From Priapulus caudatus (lineage: Eukaryota; Priapulida; Priapulimorpha; Priapulimorphida; Priapulidae): a stretch of 42,489 bases of DNA. The DNA lies in assembly GCF_000485595.1 (NCBI RefSeq), contig NW_014577320.1, positions 65,231 through 107,719 of the forward strand, written 5' to 3'. Shown here piece by piece: positions 9,233 to 33,516 of the stretch. The position numbers and the translations under genes are program-made. The notes beneath the pieces were generated by a model. It ran no database searches. It was not told the origin of the DNA and worked only from the letters and a program-made list of their open reading frames with translations. The first letter of the stretch is position 1, and the number at the start of each line of letters is the position of its first letter.

Positions 9233-10312
9233 GGTTTCCTATACATAAGTGGCGCACCGCCGTTGTAAAAATGCTCGGGTGCCTTAAATGCAGTCTTAAG
9301 ACATTCAAATTTGTAAAATTATGCTGGGGGCCCCCAGAACCCTCCCCCCATCTCTCCATCGTTATAGAGATGTATGATAACGGGATGAATTTTATGTGAA
9401 TCTATGCAGTTAAAACCTTCACGTGCAAGAGTTAGCTGCTACTTTAATGGTTATTCCGTTTTAAATGTTGAATGATGCTTGAGATTGTTATGTTATTGCT
9501 GAGAAACATTGATTACTACGTACTCATAACTACAACTCTATATCTACTGCGTACTGGCAGTACTGCGCTTTGTTTATATGACTTGAGTTTTGACATTACC
9601 CATGATGCTCTGGGAGACACTAGTAGTTGTGGGATAATGGTAAGTGATATATGCCCACAGTGGGTAGGTCAATATTCTCCTCTGTCTGAGGTCTGTGCCT
9701 GCGCTTGGCTTCCCATCATGGTTGTTATGAATGCCTCCAGGACTTTAGGCAATGGGGCATAAAATTATCAACTGACACTGCTCCTTGTAAATTACACTTG
9801 CACCTGGAAACGGGTGTACATTATGGGCTATTATGTGCCTGTTGTCAATGGTTGCTCCATATGGGACCAAAAAGTGTAAAATAAAGAGTTTGGTATGAAT
9901 ATTGAAAACATGTGGTCAGTTTATAATAACTAGCTAACATAAAGAATTTTTTATTAGGTAATTCACAGACTTCATAGTGAGGATTATTGGTAATTGTATT
10001 TGTACCGTGGGTAATATTTTTTAAAGACAAGTTCAAGTTCAGGTTAACTCTAAAGTGATGTAATCAAAGGTTAAGTTTAACCTCGTCTTTTTGTTTACAT
10101 GACATGACCAAGAGTATCTTGGTGAGAAGGGAGTATGGCTCGATCGAAACATGATATTGAAACATTGCATGCCTTTGTTTACCTATGATTTATTACATGA
10201 AACTCATTAGACATTACCTCAAAGTACGTATTGCCCCTTAGATTTCCAGCTGTCTATTTTGACGGTGAATTTGTATGTAAGGCGGGTTCCGATCCGTCCA
10301 CCGCATCGAGTG
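9233..10312. other. no gene recognised
   Basis: A GGGGGCCCCCAGA-type fragment near 9325 looks like a dispersed repeat. An open frame of 96 codons at 9472-9762 has no recognisable domain. Confidence 0.4.
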
Positions 10313-11671: not shown

Positions 11672-11726
11672 ATGCTTATGGACTTGGAAGAACCAACAAC
11701 ATTCATTACATCTTTCTCTAAACATG
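11672..11726 (+). CDS. AGO: candidate first coding exon 1a of AGO
   Basis: An ATG preceded directly by an in-frame TAA (11666-11668) opens 18 codons, [18 protein letters not shown], and leaves one base (G) before a strong donor G|GTAAGC. The phase-1 end joins the exon at 20083 to give a Gly codon and then PPGPP. Human AGO genes likewise begin with a very short first coding exon. The second ATG at 11678 is an equally possible start. Confidence 0.5.
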
Positions 11727-19300: not shown

Positions 19301-22300
19301 TGCAACGTTCTGGTATTCTGATTGACCACACCTCATAGCTGTTCACTTGATTTGCATGGAAATTTGTGATCTGTAAGTTGTAACAAACAGTTCTTACAGT
19401 TGATACTGATGCCAATGTGTACATTGCCTGTGTTATCCAGGTTTCAGTAGTATGTACCATTTGTTTTCCAGTGCTGCCAGCAACACGTGCATTTGACTAT
19501 GACCTTGTGAAACCGATCATCCGGGCATTTGATTTTGATCGTGACGTGATAACGTTCATGACAACTAACGGTGAAAAATGTAAGTCGGCACATAATTTGA
19601 TTTTGTGCCACAATGTGAGATAATTCTGTTATAGTGTAAGGGTCACTTCAGCTGCGGTCCACTGCACTGGAAATACCTGTGTAGGGAATGGTAGCATTTA
19701 ATTGTTTTTACTATGGTAAAATTCATCAATGCTACCAAAACCTGTGCAAGTATTTTCTGCTGTGCTAAGCAGTGACGCCAATCCAACAGGTTATTGGGTT
19801 TGGCAAAGTGGACTGAGCTGCAGTGTCTTTTGCATTGCTATTAAATGATTATCTCACATGGTGCCGCCCAGTCAAAATATTGCTGACTTGCGGATGGGTA
19901 GATGAGGCTCGTCTATAGTGTGTCTCGTGGTGTGATGGGAATGGCATGCGCAATGAGAGTGTGCTGTATCTTTCACACCACCAAGAAGGTGGCAGACAGG
20001 ATGCACATGTGTAGGTTGTGGAGACTCGACAGCGTGCGTGCGCATGGTTCTTTGTCAGTTCTAAAGTTGCTCTGTTTTTCAGGTCCGCCGGGTCCGCCCG
20101 GCCCTCCTGGAGGCCCACCTGGACCTCCAGTAGCCCAGGGACCCACGGGTGCGCGCCCACCTATGCCCCCACAGGCTCTGGCCCCTGTGTTGCCTTCACC
20201 GCCACAGCCGCCAGAGTTCACATGTCCTCCACGGCCCAACCACGGCACAGAGGGACGCCCTATCCTGCTGAGGGCGAACCATTTCCAGATCCGCATGCCC
20301 CGCGGCCATATACACCATTATGACGTTAGCATAGTGCCGGACAAATGCCCTAGACGAGTGAACAGGTGAGTGAGCAAGACATTTTATTTAGTCTCGTCGT
20401 GCAAGTAGTTCTTGCTAATGATAATAAAACAAGACTGTAGTTTAGCTGCAAGTATTGTAAATTATATAATAATATGTTATATTATTATATTGATATATTT
20501 AATTAATGATGTAAGTTGTAAATATTGTATATGATGTGTAGCATGACGTGTGTATGCTATTGTTGTTGACACTAGTATGGCACTCGTAATGTTTTACTTT
20601 CAAAACATTGGACTACATGCTAAAATGTAGTTCTTGCATGTATTATTGAAACTATTTTCACAGTAGTTATATTCTAAACTATCTTCTATTATGCTTGTTC
20701 ATCCACTTATAGTAGCACATAGATGTATCCTGCTGTACAACCTGAACTAGCAGTATACTGTCAAGCTCCCTCATGTATGTGCCCTTTAGGGGTACATTTA
20801 TTAAAAACAAATAGACTGTGACGCTGTCGGACTTGCAGTAAAATGTATGCAAGGTTTCATGCATGTGTACATACTTGCACCTTCGTATATGTTTTATTTA
20901 CTAGTTAATTCAGTTTATGGAAACAAATTGTTTGGTAGGAAGTCAAGTATCATATGTTGCAAATGTAATTGTTGTAGTACTAACTTGATTTGAATTTTAA
21001 AAGTGTAAAATTAATTGCATTTAAAAAGGACATTTGATGGTGGATTGTATCTTTACACATTCTCAAGTTGCGGCCAGCCAGACAGTTGAATACATGGTAA
21101 CTATTTATTTCTTACACAGGGAAATCATCGAAACGATGGTTCAAGTCGACACAAAGAAGATATTCATTGGTCAGAAGCCAGTATTTGACGGAAGGAAGAA
21201 CATGTACACACGCGACCCACTGCCAATTGGCAGAGACAAGGTGAGAAGTACAGATATACTACTACTTGTACTATACAATACGTTCGATACATTGAAGGAT
21301 TTTGGAGGAAATCAGCTTTAAATTGATTACTCTGGGAATATCTGTTATTTATTGTATCCCCCGCGACGAAGTCGGCAGTCATACTATGGTTTCATGTCTC
21401 CCCAGCCGCCGCCGCCGCCGCTCGGTCCGCCGCAGAGAATTTCCCTTCCGCTCTCTAACTCGGCCCCTAATTGACCTAGCGCTATCAAACTTGGTATACT
21501 TACACATCTTGGGGAGAAGGTGTGTCGCGTGCCAAAACCAGGTCACTACGATCTTTATTTGACCTTTACTTTGACCTTGATCATATTTTCCTTCCGCTCT
21601 ATAACTCAGGGCCCCTAATTGACCTAGCGCTACCAAACTCAGATACTTACACATCTTATAGAGAATGTGTGTCGCGTACCAAAACAAGGTCACTGCGGCT
21701 TTTATTTGACCTTGACCTTGATCATATTTTCCTTCCGCTCTATAACTCGTGCCCCTAATTGACCTAGCGCATTACTAAACTTGGTATACTTCCACATCTT
21801 GGGGAGAAGGTGTGCCGCGTACCAAAACTAGGACACTGCAACCTTTATTTGACCTTGACCTTGACCTTGACCTTCATCATATTTTTCTTCCGCTCTCTAA
21901 CTCGGCCCCTAATTGACCTAGCGCGATCCAACTTTGTATACTTACACATCTTGGGGAGAACACGGGGATACATGTAGTTGGCGACAACTGTCCTTTCTAG
22001 TTATATATTTTTTCATGCATGTATATCAATTTGCAGATTGAACTCGAGGTGACATTACCAGGTGAGGGGAAGGACAGAGTCTTCAAAACATCTCTCAAGT
22101 GGGTGGTACAGGTTAGCCTGTATGCCTTAGAGGAAGCTCTGGAGGGTCGCACACGAACTATTCCCTATGATGCCATTCAAGCTCTGGACGTCGTCATGAG
22201 GCATCTACCTAGTATGACGTAAGTGAGGGGTATATATGGTGGGCAGCAAGGTAGGAGTGTGGTAGGGAAATATTTATTTAGGCATCCGGGATATTACTGC

Positions 22301-25300
22301 CAATTGAGAACATGGTTCGAGTCAACTATTTTGTCAGAGCCACTGTCCTAGTTAGCTGATTGCCAAGTGAGTTGCTTGCAATTATGTGTGGATGAACTTT
22401 TCCCTATGGGCTGTGTATATAAATGGTTAGTTTCCTTTGATCAAATTCCCGTTTGAAATATGTTCTCAATATATGTTTAAAAAGTAATGTGGCACAATAC
22501 ATATATATCAAAGCACTGCATCATGTATAAAAACAGTGTTCATCAAAAATTAAATGGTCTGCCATGCTGTCTCCTACTGATTTCTGTCCTTGCTCTAAGT
22601 CTGCACTGTGCAGGACATGATAATAACGTTTTTTGCGATTGGCAGGTACACCCCAGTGGGTCGATCCTTTTTCTCCCAACCCGAGGGTTATTACCACCCC
22701 CTTGGTGGTGGTCGAGAGGTGTGGTTTGGATTTCATCAAAGTGTCCGCCCTTCGCAGTGGAAGATGATGCTGAATATTGATGGTGAGAGGCATTCTAATT
22801 TTGTGTGACGTAATAATTGATTGTAAGACCGGTGAAGTAACATTTCCACTGTGTATGTTATGTTCTGGTGTTGACGAGATTTTTGTGTGAAAGAATTAAA
22901 ACCATATCATAGGTAATTAGGCGATTATGTTCATCTGTGAGTTTGGTATTTGAATTAAAACGGGCATTTCTTGGATTGCAGTGTCTGCCACGGCCTTTTA
23001 TAAGGCGCAACCTGTGATAGAGTTTATGTGTGAAGTGCTAGATATCAAGGACATCAGTGAGCAAAAGAGACCCCTTACCGACTCACAACGGGTCAAATTC
23101 ACCAAAGAGATCAAGGGTAAGTTTTAAGGAGTTTTAATGATCCCCAGGCATTGTCGGTGAAAAATTATACATAGTTGTTGCAAGACCAGGATGACATTGA
23201 CTATCATGATATTGATTATATTTATAATCAAGTTTGTTTGGTCACCTGTAAATTTCATATTTAAAAATGTAAGTGTCAGAAATTCCACAAAGAATGTGTT
23301 CCTAGCTTCTTGGAAAGAAAATATTGATTCTATAAATTGTGCAAATCTGTTAAAAACGTTTTACAGTACACTCAATTTTTGGGCCATTTAGAATCATAGA
23401 CGGCAAAAAACAATGCATACCTGCTTACAATGCATGTAATTATTCGATCAATTACTTAAAGGAATAATAGGTCCATTGATTATGCAATGTTGACGAATAC
23501 TAGAGTAACTGGCACCTTGTGTAGTTAATAAGTACATTACCTTATAGCAAAACGTGTATTAATTGATTGATTAATCGATTGTCCAATATCACTGCTGGTT
23601 AGTAAGAAATGTCTAATTGAAATCCGCAGTCCAAAAATCAGTTGTTTACAGTTTCAAACCGCTGCCGGCGAAGCGGGTGTGATACAGATTTATAGTGCAC
23701 TGGACATTTTCGCACGCATGCTCGGTCGTACGCAATGCTATCATTCATCAGTGATTTCGTAAACATGGACGCTCGTGATAAGGAACTTTTTGTCAGGGCT
23801 GTCCACATGCGTCCGTGATTAGTACGTGTGTTTTACTCTATTTCCATGTTTAGTCCGTGGCCGTGGTTACACCGCTGACACCTCCGTTTCATCTGGCGTC
23901 CAAAACATACGGGCCACACAAATGGATAACATTTACGGCACGTAAATGATACGTTGATAAATATCAACAACCGATTTCAAGTCTAGTTTGTAATGTAAGC
24001 AGCAGTGATATTGGACAAACTAATACGCGTTTGGCTATAAGGTAATGTACTTATTAACTACACAAGGTGCCAGTTACTCTAGCTTTCGTCAACATTGCAT
24101 AATCAATGGAGTTATTATTCCTTTAAGCATAACCGATGATCAGTTGCCTGGATGGCTAGAGTATTGTCTGATCATTGTTGCATTTTTATAGGCCTCAAGA
24201 TCGAAATCACTCACTGTGGACAGATGAAAAGGAAGTACAGGGTGTGCAATGTGACAAGAAGGCCTGCTCAAACGCAGACGTAAGTACCATCAGCAGTTAT
24301 CTTAGTAATATAACACATCTCTATCCATCTACAAATCAACTCCCCTACATGCAGAATCTTTTAGAGAACTCTGGTCCCTGTCCTGATGTCAGTGTGAATT
24401 TTGAAAAGTTTGATAGCACTCGGCTGATGTAGTCATTCAGTCAGAGCAGTATGTTCCAACTAGTTTTTCTTGGTGCACAGGTTCCCACTGCAGCTGGAAT
24501 CTGGACAGACAGTGGAGTGCACTGTGGCTAAATACTTCTTGGACAAGCACAGAAAGCGCCTGCTTTACCCACACTTGCCCTGCCTGCAGGTGGGCCAAGA
24601 ACACAGGCACACATATCTCCCACTAGAGGTAAATCTGCTATAATTCTATTATTAGAGGCAAAAGAGAAGCCCTTACGCATTTAAAAATCGTACTTTCGAC
24701 TAGGGATAAAATAAGCCATTGCTAGCAAATTTGCAATGCCTGCTTTGTGCAATATAGCCTGCATAGCAGACTGCAATATCTGCACCAGGCTCTGCGACAA
24801 TACTGTGCAGTGGATTGCACCAATCTGTACGATAGCTTATTGTCACGATGCAGCCCTGTGGCATGGATCTTGCTCTATGGAATTTGCTCCTGCTATCGAG
24901 CTATCATGTGTATTGTTTCTGCATTAATCATGCTTAAAGTCGCGAGTCTGACATTATTTTATCGTACAGTTGTTAGTCGCTACTGCACAGGTTGTATATA
25001 ACAATGACTCGTTGATTAAGCGTTCTTTTCTTCTGCGTGAAGATTTCTAACCAGTGCTCGCGGATTCATGACCTTTCAGGTGTGTAACATCGTTGGCGGC
25101 CAGCGCTGCATTAAGAAGCTGACCGACATGCAAACATCAACTATGATCAAGGCAACAGCGCGCTCGGCTCCTGATCGTGAGAAAGAAATAAACAATTTGG
25201 TACGAAATGTGTCATAGTCTGCAGTTTTCCGATGCCTGAGCAATTGATTGCTCGTACAAATAATCGTTGTAAAAATATCGTAAAGCAGGTTATTATCTTT

Positions 25301-26129
25301 TGTGACTTGCTGACATCGATTTGCCATTGTGTGTATCTACATGTGCATAATTTTAGTCTTACGTTATTGTTAATATATAATTGTTTAAATTTATTATAAA
25401 TTCAAACAGGGTAAGTAGTAATTCTGATGTACTTTACGTTTACATGACAGTTACGGCGCACATTCTTAGTGTTACAGCCATGCACAGTTGGTATAGTTTC
25501 GATATGAAGTAATTAGTGTGTACATACTCAGACTGGATGGCAGTACTGTGTCCTGGGTTTAAAAAAAATTCTGTGATGTATATGTCAAAGTTTCATTCCT
25601 CAATGATTTACCTTGGCAGTATAGTGCATGTATTGAATTGGTACTGCATCTGCATTATTTGTTTCATTTTCCTCAAAATCTAAGCCCAATATCTGTACCA
25701 TATTGTCTCTTATACCCTATAGGTCATAGTACCTGTGCAGTCATGGACTACTGAGCTATTGCCTTGCCTACCAATCTGCCAAATTCCATAATAATAATCG
25801 CTAATTAATTTAGAATTCTCTTCACTCCGTATGTATACTTATTTTGTAGGTTCACAAAGTTAATTTCAATGAGGACCCATACATGCAAGAGTTTGGCATT
25901 AGTATCAATAGTACGATGACGGAAGTCAAAGGGCGTGTACTTCCACCACCAAAAATTCAGTATGGTGGGCGGGTGAGTAGAGAGGGGCTTTGGACGATTT
26001 CAAGCTTTCTCAGTAGGTACTGTAGACAAAGCAAGACGCTAGGGTGCACCCTGCCGGTTGCAGCTCTCTTGCTAGAACACGCCCCTGTGTGACATATCCA
26101 TGTTTTGTTTTAGTTGTGTATTTGTGTTT

Positions 26130-26165
<36 letters not shown>

Positions 26166-29100
26166 CAGTCTGAAGCTATCTTCTATCATGATGTTATCTC
26201 TGCATAGCAACCAGTTTTAGTAGCTGAAGTCTGTTCAACAGCAGCAGCAGCAGCAATAGCAATAACAACTTCATTTTTATTTCGTCTCACTTCTCTCCTG
26301 CGAATTTGTGCTAACACATTCATTGTCTGCTTCTGTCTTTCATTGCTCTCTGTTTGTTATCCCTGTGTCTAGTGCTGTATAGCACTGCATGTCCAATGCA
26401 GTAGCTCATCTCGATCCACGCCAGAGCACAGTACTGCCATTGTACGGCCGTCCAAGTTGCGGGTTGGGCTCCAGCTTTTCCTTCTTGGTGCCAGAGCACA
26501 GTACTGCCATTGTGCTGCCCTCGTTCTGCTGCCATATAACGTTGTCCTATCTTGCGCACGGTTCTTCTCATAGGTGTGCAAAGCTGACTTCAATGTCGAC
26601 ACCTACGTGCAAGACTTTGGGATTATAGTCAGTAGTGAAATGGCGGAGGTGCAAGGCCGAGTGTTGCCACCACCAAAGCTGCAGTACGGCGGCAAGGTTA
26701 GTAGCGCGACCCCCACATGGCCAGTCGTGTTATTCCAGTGGGTTACCCTCCTCTCAGCCAGATCCAAAAGGAAACCGGCAGCGCAGCGGTTGCTTTTCTG
26801 TGAGTGGTCTTTACAGCTAACCAACGCTAACATGCCAGCCAACGTTTGTTCCCGGTGATGGCACCGAGCGAATTCTACACGTGGTCTGGCAGTTGTTCGT
26901 CTTCGACGCCGAAAAACTGATGCGTTGCATTTTTGCAATGCTCATATCCAGTTCCATATGAGTTGTGAGTTGTGTGAGTTCCACCTAGTGAGTTGTGGTG
27001 TTTTATCTGTTATTTCCTGCATGGTAGACATAGATGTGCATGGTATATGCAGTGTGTTGCTTAGCCAAACCTATCGCTTGCAGCCTCCGCTTGACAGATT
27101 ATTTTTTGCAGGAATTTGGTTTCTGTAGGACGTCTATGTAAGTTTGTTGTTAATAGTAGCTTTTTTATACAGCATATGGATATACACATAATATATTACT
27201 TGTTTTAAATGTCTCGAATTTCAAACGGACAGCATATAAAATAATATGGTTCTTAAAAAATGTTCTTCTTACTTCACTGAACCTTTTGTGTCTTGTGAAT
27301 TCAATGACCCTCTGCTTTCGTCTCTTGTGAATTCAGTAATTGTGACTGGTTGAACCAGTGTTGCTATTGTACCGAGGCAGATTATCACCTAAGTCCTCTT
27401 AGTCTGGATTCCAGACAAAGCAGCAGGCCATCCCTAATCAGGGGGTGTGGGATATGAGAGGTAAAGAGTTTCACACTGGAGTGGAGATTCGCACCTGGGC
27501 CATCGCATGCTTTGCGCCACAGCGCACATGCAGAGAGGAGGCACTGAGGTTAGCACTTGTATCGAATTGTATGTAGTAGATATTCTAGAAGTCCAGAGTC
27601 CCTTTCAATTCGAATTGGATGAAGCCTAAGATATGGATGGATGTTATGAGCACGTTGAAGTGAATCCCGTTGTTTTCAGTCGGTTGAAAAATAATACAAA
27701 TAATTTGACGAATAAATCTCGGATACAGATAAGTAGTTCGTTCGGGTGCGCAGGGTTTCTCTATAGGGAAACCGTTGTCTCGTTGTTCAGGAACTTCACC
27801 GCACAGCTGCAGAAGATCAGCAACGATGCGGGCATGCCGATCCTCGGCCAGCCCGTCTTCTGCAAGTACGCGACGGGGCCGGAGCAGGTCGAGCCGATGT
27901 TCCGCTACCTGAAGAACCAGTTCCCCGGCCTGCAGCTCGTCGTCGTCGTGCTGCCGGGCAAGACTCCCGTCTACGGTACGTGCACGTGGGCGCAGCGGCC
28001 GATCCGGCCACAATTAAAAAAATCTTTGTTTGCCCTCACCCGACTCGGGCTGAAAAGTTTGGCTAGGGGGGTCTTTTTTGAGGGGGTCTTTTTACAAATT
28101 CAGCATGGTGTCTACATGCTCGGGTGTGCTTGTGTGGAGATACGTTTTATGTTGAATGTTTGTTTTGCTTGGTACATAGAATGTATTGCCTACAGATTTA
28201 TATAATGTACAGTGATACAATTTGTAAAAAAAAAAGAATAGGAAAGATTTTTTTGAATAAAATTGTTCGAGTCGGCTCCTTTTTGGCGGGTCGGTCAGGT
28301 GAGGGCAAACAAACAATATTTTTATTATGGCCTCAGAGATTACGCGGTGGGTGGGGGAGGGCACCGTACTCGAGCGGATAACTTATGGGAATGTTTTTAG
28401 CTCATCTGACGTAGTTAGATGCAGCTTGTAGAATCGCATGATCGTCCGTCCGTGCGTCCGTCCGTGCGTCCGGCCGTCCGTTCGTCAACAGTTGGGCACA
28501 AATCTTAACCGCTCGACGTACGGTCACGATATTCGGCACATCGGGGGGGGGGGTCGTCAAAACGAGTTGGGATGTCGAAGCTGGGGGTCAAGAGGTGTAA
28601 AAGAAGGGGGAACATTTACTCCTTAACTTAAGGTATAGGGAGGAAATGCAGAATTGCGGCTGAAATCTAAACGGCTTGACCTAGGCTCGTGATAGTCTGT
28701 GTATAGCATCATGGTAGGAAAAGCCATCACTGTGCCGAAATTGGAGGTCACAGGTCAAAGGTCAATGGGCACAGGGCAGATTTTATACATTTTCTGAGGA
28801 CATGGTCTGACGGAGCGATTGAAAAACTTTTTTGTTTCAGCGGTGACCTAACATTTTTATGGCTTTGTTGAAAGGACCATGAAATGTACTTTCCGCTGAC
28901 ATGCGAAGAGTAAGTGTCAGATAACCTTTTGACTCTCAAGAGGAGGGTTAAACATGGATTTGTTTCTCAACTGCGTTGGCGAGTACCTGTGGGTGTGGAA
29001 AGCTCCCATTTTACAGTGAAATTTCACACATAACTCTTACTTGAACAACGCTTATTTAGGAGATAATGACATGACTTATATATATAAGATTCTGTAGTGT

Positions 29101-32032
29101 ACATTATAAATAGTTGGAATACAGTCACTAGCACTCAAATAATTACCCAGTAGTGAGGCTGCAGATTTCCCAGACTTAATTTTCTCATCAAATTTTGGCA
29201 CCAATATAGACGCAAGTGTGTACGTTCTTGAGCTTATTCGGTCCACTAATCACTGGCCTACCTTGTACTGAAATTAGTTAAGAGATATTTGCTATCGTAT
29301 TGCTGTAAATTGTAATCTTGTACGAGCTGCTCTGCCTCTGGTTGTATCAACCATTGAGCTATTTTTAACGAGCCAGATGTGCCTCGCAAGGGGTTTAATG
29401 TACCTTATTACCTGACACCATAGAACGCACGTTATGTATAGTAATAATATGGTAATTATTCGCTCCTGCTTTTTGCAATCCGTCGTCAAAATGACAGCTG
29501 CCATTGCTGCAATGCTTTTGCTGACCGATGCAACGATGCCTTTGATAGCAGCCCGCCATCTATCGGAATTTTATTACACTAGTTTGAAGTGTTGTTTTTT
29601 GGGGTTAGAAATGAACGTATGTATAGGACGTCTTGCTATGCACAAATGAATTAATCAGCAGAACACCAGACACCAGATGAGCTCTGTCGCTCTGCGGCAC
29701 TTGTTTGGATCTTAAGAACTGTTTTGTAGTTTATACTTTTTCTCTGTGTTCTCGTATATTTTTTAATAAAAATTTTTGGGGAAATTTGTGCTGTGAGGTA
29801 CCAGCTTTGCATTACGTATAATATTGTGTCTTATTAGGAATACTAGTGGGGTGAGAAGCACTGCGTTTCTATTCATGACAGTGTGGCCTGAGCATGTACT
29901 CAATAATAAATGTTTTAGAAAATGTAGGAATCTGTTGGAAAAATGTTGAATTTAATCTTTCATTTAGCTGAGGTGAAGAGGGTAGGTGATACTGTGCTGG
30001 GTATGGCCACTCAGTGTGTACAAGCCAAGAATGTCAACAAGACATCGCCACAGACGCTGTCAAATCTGTGCCTCAAGATCAACGTGAAACTCGGTGGCGT
30101 CAACAACATTCTTGTACCAAGCATTCGGTAAGCCATGATCATTGCTGTCTACCAACGTCCACCACTGATCTCTAATAGCAGTTGATATTGAGAGAGTTCT
30201 GCAGCTGTCGCTAGCTGGGAGAAGACTTGGGCAAGTTGATTCAACTTGGCACAGTTCATTCGTACATTGTCTTCATCGCTAGCACTAGCATATTACTGCT
30301 CGACAAACGGCTTGGTATTAGGCTAAGAAACAGCGATAAAGCAGTTTGAACGCAGACCCCTTATTTCCATTTCAGTCCTCGAGTGTTTAATGAGCCAGTG
30401 ATCTTCCTGGGAGCAGACGTGACCCATCCACCTGCTGGCGACACCAAGAAGCCATCGATTGCGGCACTAGTGGGCAGCATGGATGCACACCCTAGCAGAT
30501 ATGCGGCCACCGTGCGCGTGCAGCATCATAGGCAGGAGATCATCCAGGTAAGATGTTTGCACGTCTGTATGTGACTGTTTGCGTGTGTTTACATACGTGC
30601 ATATTTTCGAGTGTTGATGTCAAGATCTACATGGAAGTGAACCATCTTAATTATTGACATGTATTAATTAATAGGTAGCTTGTAGAACACTATCAGTTCC
30701 AGTTTCCAGTTTATTTGAAACTCTGGTAGAGAAGCAACGTGTTGATAGCTACTATTAGAGATAGTATGTACAGTTATGAGCTCAAATTTACTTCTATTAC
30801 ATTATATAGTCTATTCCCAGGGTGGTTATAACAATTATTTCAAAAACTTGTTGGTCCCCTGCCTCATTAACTGTACCGTTATACATAGCATTAATGTCGC
30901 GCTCGTCAATTGTTTCTTATTGCACACTTCACAACGACGCTCCCCTGGTGTGTTTTTGCAGGATCTGGCATCAATGGTGAAGGAGTTGCTTGTTCAGTTC
31001 TACAAGGCCACAAGGTTCAAGCCTACACGTATTGTCTTCTACAGGGACGGAGTCAGTGAAGGCCAGTTTATGCAGGTCAGTGTAATGTCTCTAACTCAAA
31101 TATTTATTACATCATTTCTAATGGTTATCAATATTTACTTAATTTTCATGTTAACATTACTACTAGTTCATGTTCTTACTAGTTATATAGTGACATGTGT
31201 TAGTGACTGCCTTATTAGTGAGCTTATATTGTTCATGCAAGAGCTCATAATGGGTGGAGTGAACAAGGATAAAAAACAACAACTGAAAAACCATGTCTTG
31301 GTTTTAGCAGAGTTAAGTAACATTATGCATATAGTTTATAGAAAATACTATTTTATTTTTAACCAGCGCTGTTTGAGTGATTCAACAAGGCCTGCAGCTT
31401 GTCCCTGCCGTGATCCTCGTTCATTACTCCTCATTCATTCTATCGCAAAGCAACGTGTTGAAGCAACCAATGAATTTTAACGAAAAATAACAGTATCAGT
31501 TATTGGCAGTGTCTATATGTATTGTAGATGAGAATAGACAAGTAAACAGAGCAAGCTGTTATGTTGCCACAGTTACAGCCTGCTTCCTTGCTTATGAGTA
31601 GGGGGCCACTGCTGGTAGATTGCGAGACTATGGTATCTATCTGTGTACAAATGCTTGTGATATATAGGTTGGTGCACCTTTACACACATCTAGGTCAGCT
31701 CAGCCAAGCTCAGGAATGTGGCAGGGACAATCGATTGGCAATTAACTGATTATTCACTTAAAAATAAGGGGGGCGCATTTGGTTCTAGCTTAAATTCGAG
31801 AATATAAATTTGTTTATTGGTCGTGTGTGTCACGCTGTCAGGTGCGGTGACGGTGTGGTTAACTATGCGTTGCAGGTTCTTCAGCATGAGCTGCGAGCAG
31901 TGCGGCAGGCCTGCATGTTGCTGGAGGTCGGCTATCAGCCGGGCATCACGTTCATCGTCGTGCAGAAGCGCCATCACACACGACTGTTCTGCGCAGACAA
32001 GCGGGAGCAGGTGAGTGTTCATAATCGCTCTG

Positions 32033-32124
<92 letters not shown>

Positions 32125-33516
32125 TGGTGGTGGTGGTGGGTGAGTCGCGTTGGGTTTTAGTTTGCTTACGCAAGCCCACCTGAGTTTAGCCACTGTGTCG
32201 GGGATTACTTGAGGTGAACGGAATAATGAATAGCATCAATCGAGGATTGACATCAGCATATGTAATTTATATTGTAATTTGTAATTTGCAGATTGGTCGC
32301 AGTGGAAACATACCTGCGGGCACGACGGTGGATGTGGGGATCACCCATCCAACAGAGTTTGACTTCTATCTCTGCAGTCATGCTGGTATACAGGTGAGAA
32401 GTTCAGGATGATTATGCATGTTACCATAGCTTCCATTTCCTTGCTCTTACATGTTTTATATTATCTCGGTTCAGCTGTGTGATGGCTTCAGTTTTTACAT
32501 ATTGAGTACCAACAATGTGTGTAGGGTTGTATGGGAAAAATGCAGCCCGAGTACACACGTGCTAGCTACTGAACAAAATGTTTGATTTAGTGCACTGTAA
32601 ACACATAGCTGCTATAGGCATATCCATCTGCATGACATTCTCTTGTGCTTGATTTCTGTTTGTTACGAATGTGTTTCAGGGAACGAGTAGGCCGTCACAT
32701 TATCACGTGCTGTGGGATGACAACCACTTCTCAGCTGATGAACTGCAGCAGCTCACCTATCAGCTGTGTCACACATACGTGCGCTGCACGCGCAGCGTCT
32801 CCATTCCAGCTCCAGCCTACTACGCCCACCTGGTAGCATTCAGAGCACGATATCACCTTGTGGAGAAGGAGCACGACAGGTGAGCGTGATTCATTGTTTG
32901 TATTTACTCGCTTGGTTCAAATTTGATCATATCGCGGGTGATGTTGTAACATTTGTGGCGCATTTACCATTCGTTTTACTGAGTGCTAACAAACTATGTC
33001 TTTGTGTTATTAGCTCCAAGTATTCGCCAGGATACAGCTCTGAAGATGCATCTGAGTTGTAAGTATTAGTTATTATGTTGTCGCCTATTTGTGTTTTCAT
33101 TGAGTTTCATAACGAAACTAATCTGCTCACCTGTCTACGGATTGCAATGGCGTCTGTCTAACAGACCATTTTATGTGTTCAGGGAAATGTAGTTTTGTAA
33201 GGTAATTGACAGCCGCACGTTTGCAAACTAAAAATGTCCACCATTGTGCAACGAGAAAGGAGACCGACTTGACATAACACTAGTCATTACCGCCTGCAGT
33301 GTAGCTGGCGCCACTTGCTGTGACACGCAACGTTGTCGGTTTTTTTTTTTTTTTTGTCGCTGTAATGTGTCTTGACCTTATTGCTGTATGTGATTTCTGA
33401 CTTGCAGTGGGGAAGGTAGCCATCAGTCGGGAAGCAGTGAGGACCGGACACCGGCATCGATGGCACGTGCCGTGCAGGTGCACGTTGACGCTGGCAAGGT
33501 GATGTACTTTGCCTGA
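11672..33516 (+). CDS. AGO: Argonaute gene, whole coding locus (exons listed separately)
   Basis: The gene encodes an AGO-clade Argonaute, the small-RNA-guided core of the miRNA/siRNA silencing complex, acting mainly in the cytoplasm. All exons from 20083 to 33516 join in frame with GT-AG junctions. Using the first exon at 11672, one duplicated exon and no C-terminal cassette gives 900 aa. From the duplicated exon to the C-terminus the numbering equals human AGO2 plus 41 without indels. Rough domains: Gly/Pro-rich tail 19-60, N ~90-180, L1 ~181-270, PAZ ~271-388, L2 ~389-485, MID ~486-615, PIWI ~616-900. The slicer tetrad is intact: D638 (GADVTH), E678 (RQEIIQ), D710 (FYRDG), H848 (YYAHL). 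The 5'-phosphate pocket residues Y570 and K574 are present. Three regions offer alternative splicing. The AGO identity is certain; the N-terminus is not. Confidence 0.97.
11905..11960. repeat. GT / GTGC microsatellite
   Basis: A (GT)n run passes into (GTGC)n and back to (GT)n, inside the putative first intron. Confidence 0.95.
11961..13570. other. putative AGO intron, CpG-richer patch at 12.5-12.7 kb
   Basis: No exon is recognised. GCGCGCGG and CCGCGG motifs near 12635-12655 make a locally CpG-rich patch. It could be a second promoter for the first exon at 13571, but nothing else supports this. Confidence 0.3.
13571..13661 (+). CDS. AGO: candidate alternative first coding exon 1b of AGO
   Basis: The ATG opens 30 codons ([15 protein letters not shown]... 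ending LRREKD) plus one base before a strong donor G|GTGAGT. As with exon 1a, the phase-1 end creates a Gly codon when joined to 20083, so the two exons could substitute for each other. Its codons look protein-like and contain no low complexity. Splicing 1b straight to 20083 would give a 912-aa protein with one duplicated exon and no C-terminal cassette. It needs 5' RNA ends to confirm. Confidence 0.45.
13662..14756. other. putative AGO intron
   Basis: AT-rich sequence with no recognised exon. Confidence 0.35.
14757..15174. mobile_element. hAT5-like MITE, CAGGGTTCTTGTTAA termini
   Basis: The 15-base terminal inverted repeat CAGGGTTCTTGTTAA is perfect at both ends, and AGTAG is duplicated at the flanks (14752-14756 and 15175-15179). 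The interior carries a GCTAGGGGGGTCCGGGG block typical of dispersed marine-invertebrate repeats. No transposase ORF is present. Confidence 0.8.
15175..15928. other. putative AGO intron
   Basis: No exon, RNA gene or repeat is recognised. Confidence 0.35.
15929..15981. repeat. 22-bp perfect hairpin with a 9-base loop
   Basis: TATCAGAAGTAGATAATAGG (then GA) is followed after nine bases by its exact reverse complement. The termini resemble foldback element 2 (TATCAAGAGTAGATAATAAC). It is probably a collapsed member of that family. The stem is short for a typical animal pre-miRNA but close to shRNA size. Confidence 0.9.
16149..16184 (+). CDS. AGO: candidate 36-nt optional N-terminal exon of AGO
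   Basis: A pyrimidine-rich acceptor (TGCCACCTGCAG) precedes 36 bases that end at ACAG|GTCAGC. Both ends are phase 1 and the length is divisible by three. After a phase-1 first exon it reads [12 protein letters not shown] and again leaves a G. Including or skipping it keeps the frame. The evidence is splice signals and frame only. Confidence 0.4.
16286..16400. repeat. poly-C and CT microsatellite
   Basis: A C run is followed by (CT)n with interspersed CTCG units, about 115 bases, in a putative AGO intron. Confidence 0.95.
16652..17330. mobile_element. TIR element, GGCCCGTTGCCAGAAA termini, 5-bp duplication
   Basis: The left end GGCCCGTTGCCAGAAA and right end TTTCTGGCAACGGGCC are perfect inverted repeats. 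CCTGG is duplicated on each side (16647-16651 and 17331-17335). A sub-terminal inverted TTAAGTTAA-type region follows. This 679-bp copy is uninterrupted and gives the empty-site sequence for the nested copy at 7081-9232 (CATCATAATATGCATAAATT). No transposase is present. Confidence 0.85.
17336..19471. other. putative AGO intron
   Basis: AT-rich, with a (GT)n run at about 19179-19203. A pyrimidine-AG site near 18072 precedes a 43-base open stretch, but its length would break the frame, so I do not call it an exon. Confidence 0.35.
19472..19579 (+). CDS. AGO: candidate 108-nt optional N-terminal exon of AGO
   Basis: The acceptor TTTGTTTTCCAG is followed by 36 codons, phase 1 at both ends, and the donor AAT|GTAAGT. 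Read after a phase-1 exon it encodes (V)[18 protein letters not shown]... and ends TNGEK. The final T changes the junction codon with 20083 from Gly to Cys. The peptide is acidic and aromatic with no homology I recognise; it contains FDYDLV and FDFDRDV, a possible internal repeat. Combined with 36-nt and 1b exons it would extend the tail well beyond typical AGO. Confidence 0.45.
20083..20365 (+). CDS. AGO: AGO exon: Gly/Pro-rich tail and start of N domain
   Basis: The acceptor TCTGTTTTTCAG leads into a collagen-like tail [16 protein letters not shown] (codon for the first G is split), then a Pro-rich stretch, then the N-domain start [18 protein letters not shown] and KCPRRVNR. The donor is AACAG|GTGAGT. 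The tail is probably disordered. KCPRRVNR is invariant in AGO proteins and fixes the frame and the downstream junction (R split as AG+G). Confidence 0.95.
21120..21240 (+). CDS. AGO: AGO exon: N domain
   Basis: The exon begins by completing R and continues [27 protein letters not shown] and RDK, then donor GTGAGA. It aligns with the human AGO2 segment EIVEHMVQ ... LPIGRDK. Length 121 nt; it ends in phase 0. Confidence 0.95.
21445..21962. repeat. tandem repeat, 141-155-bp unit, ~3.5 copies, in an AGO intron
   Basis: Units begin CTTCCGCTCTCTAACTC (starts at 21445, 21591, 21732 and 21887), contain CCCTAATTGACCTAGCGC and ACATCTTGGGGAGAA, and end in TTTGACCTTGACCTTGA. The TGACCT repeats equal nuclear-receptor half-sites by chance or function. 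A CCGCCG run precedes them at 21402. Confidence 0.9.
22037..22218 (+). CDS. AGO: AGO exon: N domain to L1
   Basis: TTTGCAG|ATT opens [16 protein letters not shown] and runs through [16 protein letters not shown] and [12 protein letters not shown]. The donor is GAC|GTAAGT. The T codon is split AC+G with the next exon, as in vertebrate AGO genes where the same junction falls before YTPVGRSFF. Confidence 0.95.
22646..22782 (+). CDS. AGO: AGO exon: L1 linker
   Basis: GGCAG|G opens [20 protein letters not shown] and continues [20 protein letters not shown] to LNID. The donor is G|GTGAGA. L1 leads from the N domain to PAZ. Highly conserved; phase 2 to phase 1. Confidence 0.95.
22982..23116 (+). 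CDS. AGO: AGO exon: start of PAZ
   Basis: GATTGCAG|TG opens [20 protein letters not shown], then [14 protein letters not shown] with donor G|GTAAGT. PAZ binds the 3' end of the guide RNA. Third-position GC here is 26 of 45 codons, useful as a local baseline. Confidence 0.95.
23460..24122. mobile_element. TTAA-flanked MITE in an AGO intron
   Basis: TTAA lies on both sides (23456-23459 and 24123-24126) of a 663-bp element whose ends are inverted repeats of about 130-145 bp (AGGAATAATA ... TTATTATTCCT). TTAA duplication is the hallmark of piggyBac-type transposition, although the terminal bases are not the usual piggyBac ones. No transposase is present. Confidence 0.8.
24192..24279 (+). CDS. 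AGO: AGO exon: PAZ
   Basis: The acceptor TTTTTATAG leads into [20 protein letters not shown] and VTRRPAQTQ. The donor is GAC|GTAAGT. The human PAZ has the same [19 protein letters not shown] core. Confidence 0.95.
24481..24628 (+). CDS. AGO: AGO exon: end of PAZ
   Basis: The acceptor TGGTGCACAG completes T and opens [19 protein letters not shown], then [20 protein letters not shown] and PLE. The donor is GAG|GTAAAT, phase 0. Confidence 0.95.
24629..25079. other. AGO intron
   Basis: No exon or repeat is recognised in this 451-base intron; the open frames within it have no domain. Confidence 0.5.
25080..25199 (+). CDS. AGO: AGO exon: L2 linker with helix-7
   Basis: ACCTTTCAG|GTG opens [20 protein letters not shown], then [20 protein letters not shown]. 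The donor is TTG|GTACGA, with a less usual position 5. The TMI equals human AGO2 T363-M364-I365 on helix-7, which kinks the guide seed. The exon is exactly 40 codons, phase 0 to phase 0, so it can join either following duplicated exon. Confidence 0.97.
25537..25556 (+). promoter_or_regulatory. candidate intronic docking site for exon choice
   Basis: ATGGCAGTACTGTG (25537-25550) is the perfect reverse complement of CACAGTACTGCCAT, which occurs twice before exon B (26427-26440 and 26497-26510). Continuing into TCCTGG adds one G-U pair, one mismatch and four more pairs, for about 20 bp. The site is 294-313 bases before exon A. The CAGTACTG core is a palindrome, so part of the match is automatic; the six flanking bases of the 14-mer are not. 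Confidence 0.55.
25850..25972 (+). CDS. AGO: AGO duplicated exon A (L2 linker), probable mutually exclusive exon
   Basis: ATTTTGTAG|GTT ... CGG|GTGAGT gives 41 codons, phase 0 to phase 0: [41 protein letters not shown]. It aligns without gaps to human AGO2 383-423 and to exon B (26574-26696; 26 of 41 residues identical). At the position of human S387 it has Asn; the Y393 equivalent is kept. Either A or B alone restores the normal AGO length. Using both would add 41 residues but keep the frame, so exclusivity cannot come from frameshift alone. Confidence 0.93.
26131..26164. repeat. GT microsatellite between exons A and B
   Basis: A run of (GT)n of about 33 bases lies in the 601-base intron that separates the two duplicated exons. 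Confidence 0.95.
26420..26443 (+). promoter_or_regulatory. candidate selector repeat 1 upstream of exon B
   Basis: First copy of a 24-base perfect direct repeat (starts GCCAGAGCACAG, ends CTGCCATTGT). Its inner 14 bases, 26427-26440, are perfectly complementary to 25537-25550 in the intron before exon A. Confidence 0.5.
26490..26513 (+). promoter_or_regulatory. candidate selector repeat 2 upstream of exon B
   Basis: Second identical 24-base copy, 70 bases after the first and ending 60 bases before exon B. The same inner 14 bases pair with 25537-25550. Two identical selectors for one exon would raise the chance of pairing. Confidence 0.5.
26574..26696 (+). CDS. AGO: AGO duplicated exon B (L2 linker), probable mutually exclusive exon
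   Basis: CTTCTCATAG|GTG ... AAG|GTTAGT gives 41 codons, phase 0 to phase 0: [41 protein letters not shown]. The equivalent of human S387 is Asp, a permanent negative charge, and the Y393 equivalent is Tyr. ADFN and PPPKLQYGG match what I recall of other invertebrate AGOs, so B may be the more ancestral version. Its donor GTTAGT is weaker than that of exon A (GTGAGT). Both exons have intact splice sites and frames, and DNA differs while protein is conserved, so neither looks like a pseudo-exon. Confidence 0.93.
26697..27414. other. AGO intron
   Basis: A 718-base intron after exon B. No further copy of the duplicated exon is found in it. Confidence 0.6.
27415..27548 (+). CDS. AGO: AGO exon: end of L2 and start of MID
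   Basis: GGATTCCAG|ACA opens [19 protein letters not shown], then [20 protein letters not shown] and REEAL. The donor is CTGAG|GTTAGC. It is the common acceptor exon for exons A and B; its phase-0 start fits both. Confidence 0.95.
27791..27975 (+). CDS. AGO: AGO exon: MID domain, unusually GC-rich at third positions
   Basis: TTGTTCAG|G opens [20 protein letters not shown], then [39 protein letters not shown]. The donor is G|GTACGT. The final Y is human Y529, which stacks on the guide 5' base. By hand count 58 of 61 complete codons end in G or C, against 26 of 45 in the exon at 22982. Its protein is normal. Confidence 0.97.
28006..28332. mobile_element. short TIR element in an AGO intron
   Basis: GGCCACAATTAAAAAAATC and TTGTTTGCCCTCACC at the left face GGTGAGGGCAAACAAACAA and TTTTTATTATGGCC at the right, as inverted repeats of about 40 bases with small differences. 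The interior carries GGCTAGGGGGGTC. No ORF of interest; family not identified. Confidence 0.65.
28400..28960. repeat. dispersed repeat with CGTCCGTC run
   Basis: TTTAGCTCATCTGACG, GTAGAATCGCATGATCG and then CGTCCGTCCGTGCGTCC recall a dispersed repeat common in marine invertebrates. It lies within the 1992-base AGO intron 27976-29967. The boundaries are approximate. Confidence 0.45.
29185..29435. repeat. diverged partial copy of foldback element 2
   Basis: TTCTCATCAAATTTTGGCACCAATA, ACTAATCACT and GTATTGCTGTAAAT match the left arm of element 2 (8230-8380). GGGGTTTAATGTACC.TATTACCTG and CGTTATG match its spacer in inverse orientation. It is an old, partial and rearranged copy. Confidence 0.65.
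29968..30127 (+). CDS. AGO: AGO exon: MID to PIWI
   Basis: TCATTTAG|CT completes A and opens [20 protein letters not shown], then [20 protein letters not shown] and VPSI. The donor is CG|GTAAGC. K of AEVK equals human K533, and QCVQ equals Q545-C546, which bind the guide 5' phosphate. Confidence 0.97.
30376..30547 (+). CDS. AGO: AGO exon: PIWI, catalytic D and E
   Basis: CATTTCAG|T completes R and opens [20 protein letters not shown], then [28 protein letters not shown]. The donor is CAG|GTAAGA. D of GADVTH and E of RQEIIQ equal human D597 and E637, the first and second residues of the slicer tetrad. Confidence 0.97.
30962..31075 (+). CDS. AGO: AGO exon: PIWI, catalytic D
   Basis: TTTTTGCAG|GAT opens [19 protein letters not shown] and continues [16 protein letters not shown]. 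The donor is CAG|GTCAGT. D of FYRDG equals human D669. The reading frame stays open for 134 codons into the following intron (see findings). Confidence 0.97.
31876..32010 (+). CDS. AGO: AGO exon: PIWI
   Basis: GCGTTGCAG|GTT opens [19 protein letters not shown], then [19 protein letters not shown] and CADKREQ. The donor is [26 protein letters not shown] is nearly invariant in AGO proteins. Confidence 0.97.
32032..32126. repeat. GTGC microsatellite in a short AGO intron
   Basis: About 23 units of GTGC start 21 bases after the donor at 32011 and fill a third of the 281-base intron; a short (GGT)n follows. Confidence 0.97.
32292..32393 (+). CDS. AGO: AGO exon: PIWI
   Basis: AATTTGCAG|ATT opens [19 protein letters not shown] and [15 protein letters not shown]. 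The donor is CAG|GTGAGA. Exactly 34 codons, phase 0 to phase 0. Confidence 0.97.
32680..32879 (+). CDS. AGO: AGO exon: PIWI, catalytic H
   Basis: GTGTTTCAG|GGA opens [20 protein letters not shown], then [20 protein letters not shown] and [17 protein letters not shown]. The donor is AG|GTGAGC. H of YYAHLV equals human H807 and completes the slicer tetrad. The last codon is split (AG) at the residue equal to human S824. Confidence 0.97.
33014..33058 (+). CDS. AGO: AGO 45-nt cassette exon before the C-terminal Ser cluster
   Basis: GTTATTAG|C ... GAGTT|GTAAGT. The exon is phase 2 at both ends and a multiple of three, so it can be skipped. Skipping gives [12 protein letters not shown], matching human EHDSAEGSHTSG. 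Inclusion keeps the S824 equivalent (AGC) and inserts [15 protein letters not shown]. The insert has five Ser, two Tyr and three acidic residues and repeats the SSED motif of the normal tail (SSEDRT). Splice sites are good; usage is unknown. Confidence 0.75.
33408..33516 (+). CDS. AGO: AGO last coding exon
   Basis: GACTTGCAG|T leads into [20 protein letters not shown], then [15 protein letters not shown] and TGA. KVMYFA (or RTMYFA in human) is the invariant AGO C-terminus, buried near the active site. Positions equal to human S828, S831 and S834 are Ser and T830 is Gln, so the phosphorylation cluster is largely conserved. Confidence 0.97.

Follow-up and report, generated by a model that had tools for sequence, protein, structure and literature searches.

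A tandem pair of putatively mutually exclusive exons in the L2 linker of an Argonaute gene of Priapulus caudatus

Within the 42,489-nt stretch of Priapulus caudatus DNA that was analyzed as a whole (the window), an Argonaute (AGO) gene contains two tandem homologous exons, 10A and 10B, which encode the same 41-residue piece of the L2 linker. We consider that these exons are probably alternative, mainly mutually exclusive versions of this piece (probability about 0.7), so that the gene would make two AGO proteins differing at 15 of the 41 residues, including the one at the position of Ser387 in human AGO2. That the two exons are used alternatively at all, whether strictly or not, is very likely from the sequence evidence. 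The exon pair itself is real, and the initial annotation, which had proposed mutually exclusive exons here, was right in kind and is strengthened by data from other phyla; exclusivity in Priapulus is still best called putative. Mutually exclusive exons themselves are known; new here is a duplicate, seemingly exclusive pair in an Argonaute L2 linker. No description of such a pair was found among the matches listed for open-licence literature on AGO splicing, and in the available portion of the Strigamia genome paper mutually exclusive splicing concerns Dscam, while Ago1 is only named.

The host gene lies on the forward strand, and exons 2-19 of our model occupy positions 20083..33516: exons 2-5 at 20083-20365, 21120-21240, 22037-22218 and 22646-22782, exons 6-9 at 22982-23116, 24192-24279, 24481-24628 and 25080-25199, the pair 10A/10B, exons 11-14 at 27415-27548, 27791-27975, 29968-30127 and 30376-30547, and exons 15-19 at 30962-31075, 31876-32010, 32292-32393, 32680-32879 and 33408-33516, the last containing the stop codon. 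The model encodes 881 residues; human AGO2, which aligns over 30-881, is the best PDB match of the version A protein (1533.8 bits). By this match and by the Pfam domains given below, the gene is an AGO-clade Argonaute of the AGO1/2 type. Motifs of a putative slicer tetrad, AYYAHL among them, are present in the model, a reading from sequence that covers three of the four residues. NCBI lists a product of it as 'protein argonaute-2-like isoform X3 [Priapulus caudatus]' (P0003, 996 residues), which is a database prediction and one member of a cluster of 9 sequences. Joining 22 window exons reproduces P0003 letter for letter, namely the two 5' coding exons at 11672-11726 and 19472-19579 on the same strand (the latter with a GT donor), exons 2-19 with both 10A and 10B, exon 11 taken from 27403, and a cassette at 33014-33058. 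Pfam places ArgoN, L1, PAZ, L2, MID and Piwi on P0003, all above the cut-off. The alternative acceptor of exon 11, 12 nt upstream of the usual one (27403-27414), gives P0003 an additional SGFQ where L2 meets MID, and Ylistrum and Lineus isoforms show a one-Gln difference at the same border. The cassette present in P0003 is a 45-nt in-frame exon between exons 18 and 19.

Exon 10A (25850..25972, + strand) and exon 10B (26574..26696, + strand) lie between exon 9 and exon 11; each is 123 nt long, in phase 0/0 and bordered by GT-AG sites, and the intron between them measures 601 nt. All of these values, together with the end of exon 9 at 25199, the start of exon 11 at 27415 and a protein identity of 26/41, were reported in the initial annotation and came out the same when re-measured. 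Its equation of the segment with residues 383-423 of human AGO2 agrees with our ungapped alignment (HMMER placed residues 3-41 of 10B on AGO2 385-423), and its view that either exon yields a collinear AGO was borne out, since the 881 residues are collinear with each, the N-terminus coming in addition. The structural features by which a mutually exclusive pair is recognized are found in 10A and 10B: they are tandem and homologous, equal in length modulo 3, identical in phase, and equipped with their own splice sites. Their likeness is not due to chance, because a tblastn search of the window with version A recovered 10B at E = 1.2e-12. The whole gene model, used as a tblastn query against the window, revealed no other duplicated exon, the remaining extra matches having E values of at least 2.

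The duplication appears to be old rather than recent, because only 86 of 123 bases are identical and the flanks are unlike: beyond the exon borders the similarity hardly exceeds the splice signals, ending after 3 nt on the upstream side and 8 nt on the downstream side. Both copies look selected. Of the 41 bases at each codon position, 30 (first), 34 (second) and 22 (third) are identical, and the NG86 method gives dN 0.24 and dS 1.48 (dN/dS of about 0.16), with LWL85 giving 0.26 and 1.15. When random drift was simulated to the same DNA distance, the frame stayed open in 1903 of 5000 trials and at least 26 residues were kept in a single one. The age and the constraint on both copies are drawn from this DNA divergence, the dN/dS ratio and the drift simulation together. 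A copy that is decaying or out of use, or a duplicate created by the assembly, is therefore very improbable, and nothing was found in favour of either. The latter, which the initial annotation had named as a case that would overturn its reading, is excluded by the 30% DNA divergence, and a decaying copy is hard to reconcile with the low dN/dS and with the retention, in both exons, of the splice sites and of all nine segment residues that do not vary across an alignment of 43 sequences. The moth Operophtera offers an example of a likely artefact, its predicted AGO P0128 containing two near-identical copies of the segment; this is probably an assembly or annotation error and was not counted as a pair.

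The initial annotation had proposed searching for the same exon pair in related genomes, and two versions of the segment were indeed found in molluscs and a nemertean, six further species from two other phyla, all compared at the level of predicted proteins. Protein searches gave 39 matches with version A, 14 with version B and, with the double segment of Batillaria, the best 120 of 509; a total of 139 homologues were fetched, and a pattern for the segment matched in 138 (all but P0041). Isoforms were assigned to one gene by their names and by their agreement in the rest of the protein. Lineus P0046 and Aplysia P0092 were left out of the counts, as their many differing sites make them look like products of second genes. 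The segment is swapped between isoforms of one gene in Aplysia californica (P0093/95-98, five isoforms, versus P0054/55, two), Babylonia areolata (P0102-105, four, versus P0064/66-70, six), Ylistrum balloti (P0027/35, two, versus P0134, one, with a further exon and a single residue differing as well) and the nemertean Lineus longissimus (P0044/45, two, versus P0047-50, four). Batillaria P0004 and Physella P0051 each contain both versions in tandem within one predicted protein. As the protein database is clustered at 90% identity, species for which one version is in hand may well have two.

These data bear on two other ways in which the gene might use the pair. The two exons might normally be joined, giving a tandem repeat of the ArgoL2 segment within the protein and no switch at all. 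P0003 joins the two without a frame shift, and its Pfam annotation contains two ArgoL2 domains; the same arrangement is predicted in Batillaria and Physella, and two phase-0 exons of 123 nt keep the frame on joining. Nevertheless, every fetched isoform of the swapping gene in Aplysia, Babylonia, Ylistrum and Lineus has exactly one version, and a pattern search found the segment twice in only four of 138 proteins (P0003, P0004, P0051 and P0128), the last with near-identical copies. P0003 also takes up other optional pieces (SGFQ and a 15-residue insert), as a prediction of the longest model might. Normal double inclusion is thus improbable in our assessment. AlphaFold2 models do not inform on whether the doubled form could fold, the mean pLDDT being poor both for P0003 (54.0) and for the single-segment control Lineus P0044 (48.9).

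A second alternative, which we also regard as quite unlikely, is that 10A and 10B are adjacent cassette exons under loose control, with transcripts carrying A, B or both. Both frame and distance would permit joining (601-nt intron, 123-nt exons, GT-AG sites), the joined form is predicted in P0003, and in a layout like that of Dscam exon 6 joining has to be prevented by an additional repressor (PMC6071210). The clean swaps in four species speak against loose control, as does the addition of 41 residues to a highly conserved protein that joining would bring. The proposal of mutually exclusive exons in the initial annotation therefore holds insofar as isoforms of relatives swap the segment, but its strict form is weakened by the in-frame joining of 10A and 10B in P0003, an outcome that the initial annotation itself counted against its reading should transcripts show it routinely, and a mainly exclusive switch is the reading that we prefer.

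Three mechanisms that can forbid joining do not apply to 10A and 10B, namely U2/U12 incompatibility, a too-short intron, or a frame broken by double inclusion. A block by the position of the branch point is the route to exon exclusion in tropomyosin; with an AG exclusion zone of 70 nt, against up to 101 elsewhere, 10B gives no indication of such a block. The introns do contain complementary sequences that might form a docking/selector system. A candidate docking site in intron 9 (25537..25556, + strand) is complementary at 18 of 20 positions to each of two candidate selector B copies upstream of 10B (26421..26440 and 26491..26510, + strand), with predicted duplex energies of -37.1 and -36.0 kcal/mol. 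Both copies lie in a 33-nt direct repeat (26420-26452 and 26490-26522, 91% identical, 70 nt apart). Within 25200-27414, the only inverted repeats of at least 14 nt linking different introns are those joining the docking site to the two selector B copies. A candidate selector A upstream of 10A (25710..25743, + strand) would pair with the docking site at -31.7 kcal/mol. In the proposed mechanism, the single docking site would pair with either selector A or selector B and thereby expose the adjoining exon.

Shuffling controls point to the same introns. The ungapped pairing score between intron 9 and the intron between 10A and 10B (here intron 10) was 43, which none of 1000 dinucleotide shuffles reached (maximum 42), and the scores of other intron pairs were not unusual, being reached by 176 (10/11), 84 (9/11) and 994 (8/10) of 1000. 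The energy of the docking site with 25710-25743 was reached by one of 500 shuffles, as was that with intron 10, versus 258, 86, 190, 365 and 58 of 500 for five other targets. In a scan of intron 9 (56 windows, 60 shuffles), the region upstream of 10A ranked window 25530 first (z -4.6) and 25410 second (z -3.9), and that upstream of 10B ranked 25524 first (z -5.6) and 25530 second (z -4.1); the overlapping windows 25524 and 25530 thus lead both rankings. A weaker site in intron 9 near 25612 pairs with the selector B copies at -23.5 and -26.3 kcal/mol. The helix between the docking site and selector B copy 1 is part of the minimum-energy fold of 25200-26700. When 12 segments were folded by partition function, it was dominant in 10 and the helix to selector A in two; as the dominant helix changes between segments, the fold depends on the segment chosen. 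The donor of exon 9 is the weakest of 18 in the gene (2.9 bits, the next being 5.4, by a leave-one-out matrix built from this gene).

The docking site was first spotted by eye, the helix is predicted in one species, and window 25410 too shows unusually good pairing with the region upstream of 10A. There is about an even chance that the complementarity reflects a dispersed repeat or coincidence and that RNA-binding proteins set the exon choice instead. The core CAGTACTG is palindromic, so that the copies would also pair among themselves (-19.7 and -17.4 kcal/mol), and the opposite strand carries a 14-nt core resembling it at 9555, both of which would suit such a repeat. Against it, a search of the 42 kb allowing three mismatches located the 22-nt core of selector B at these two places only, and the regions with which the docking site pairs best lie ahead of each of the two alternative exons. 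On these predicted structures, we place docking/selector control of the choice between 10A and 10B slightly below even odds.

The two versions differ in a regular manner at the position of human AGO2 Ser387, which is Asn in 10A and Asp in 10B. In all seven version pairs, exactly one version has Asp at this position, and the other has Asn in six pairs and Gln in one (Lineus); because a single duplication probably gave rise to all five molluscan pairs, the seven amount to about three independent cases. Positions 384, 390 and 400 likewise differ in 7/7 pairs. Over 142 segments in 138 proteins, the Ser387 position is occupied by Asp in 102, Asn in 32, Gln in five, Lys in two and Leu in one. Phosphorylation of Ser387 promotes recruitment of GW182 by AGO2 (PMC5507773, PMC5983126); the phospho-mimic S387E rescues binding of LIMD1 and TNRC6A, which is reduced in S387A, and AGO3, with a glutamate (E390) next to this site, needs no Akt to bind LIMD1-family proteins (PMC5507773). 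Ser387 is not conserved in fly AGO1 (PMC5507773). In neurons, S387D raises GW182 binding, S387A lowers it slightly but not significantly, and one of two miRNA targets is unaffected by either mutation (PMC5983126). Five human AGO2 sequences in the PDB have Asp at 387, taken here as engineered S387D, and another has Ser.

By analogy, the Asp387 version might act as a permanently phosphorylated Ser387 and recruit GW182 and LIM-domain partners of this kind strongly, the Asn387 version would recruit them differently or more weakly, and splicing would set what Akt signalling sets in vertebrates. Such a Ser387-like function of the exon switch is a tentative proposal. Residue 390 is Glu in Priapulus version A and Asp in Lineus version 2, and local charge is therefore not simply lost in these; the five molluscs have no acidic residue there. 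The swap between Lineus P0044 and P0047 also turns the residue aligned to Tyr393 of human AGO2 from Tyr to Phe.

The origin of the pair was examined with an exon tree of 49 hand-chosen rows from the fetched proteins and human AGO2, 45 remaining after four identical rows were dropped. The data for this tree are few. A molluscan Asn group was supported (98/99) with P0133 inside it, and exons from molluscs, nemerteans and annelids formed a group (92/92) that left both Priapulus exons outside; the rotifer Brachionus, on a long branch, stood beside 10A (92/65). AU tests rejected none of the groupings tried, whether Priapulus A with B (p 0.175), the Lineus pair (0.132), molluscan Asn rows together with Priapulus A (0.112), molluscan Asp rows together with Priapulus B (0.127), or molluscan Asn rows without P0133 (0.182). 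The order of the versions is opposite, Asn coming first in Priapulus and Asp first in the predicted Batillaria and Physella proteins. Because of the exon tree and this opposite order, several origins of the pair with the same Asp/amide difference are weakly favoured over one ancient protostome pair.

Further swaps were observed elsewhere in the AGO proteins of these relatives. In Babylonia P0069 and P0102, unlike the other isoforms, the PIWI motif GADVTHPP is replaced by GASITHPP, a second swapped exon in a molluscan AGO, and Batillaria P0004 holds both motifs; Dreissena P0040 has GGSVTHPP and Saccostrea P0138 GANVTHPP in its place. The motif presumably holds the first catalytic Asp of PIWI, and the altered sequences suggest that these molluscan forms may be slicer-dead. 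A tblastn search of the window found no second exon of the GADVTHPP type. Between Ylistrum P0134 and P0027 there is a third swap, affecting the counterpart of exon 4 of the window, and Lineus isoforms also swap a C-terminal segment.

If the proposed switch is true, splicing at the AGO L2 linker would make partner choice a cell-type decision, whereas in vertebrates L2 charge and partner choice are set by phosphorylation or by gene paralogues. The natural protein pairs of the priapulid, the nemertean and the molluscs would provide a direct test of the role of the Ser387 region, and an origin of the pair on more than one occasion would point to a strong functional reason. The broadest proposal, that protostome AGO genes repeatedly evolved a splice-set Ser387 switch in which competing pre-mRNA structures choose between Asp and amide L2 exons and thereby the partners of microRNA-loaded AGO, is at present doubtful.

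Several known systems resemble parts of this case. The slug Deroceras laeve also illustrates molluscan AGO diversity, having two AGO genes, one with a changed catalytic tetrad, but these are separate genes and the available text does not mention exon swapping (PMC12506671). In the shrimp Marsupenaeus, Ago1A/B/C are likewise isoforms of one AGO1 gene, probably produced by splicing; unlike in Priapulus, the differences are insertions, one of 9 nt close to the 5' end and one of 81 nt within PIWI, rather than a swap of duplicate exons, and they lie outside L2 (PMC3510085). The exon 6 cluster of Dscam is similar to 10A/10B in its equal-length tandem duplicate exons and in its layout, with one docking site upstream and selector-like sites before each variant exon (PMC6071210, PMC8042237); pairing between docking and selector sites exposes an exon for splicing there, and another mechanism, likely a repressor, prevents the joining of variant exons (PMC6071210). 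Priapulus differs in having two exons instead of tens, an Argonaute as the gene, a pairing predicted in one species, and a joined form in a database model. A separate anti-joining step of the Dscam type would fit leaky double inclusion in Priapulus. As for the protein, the Ser387 phospho-switch of AGO2 and the acidic residue of AGO3 show charge at the same place in L2 controlling partner choice; in vertebrates this charge is set by Akt3 or by paralogues (PMC5507773, PMC5983126), and Priapulus would set it by the choice of exon.
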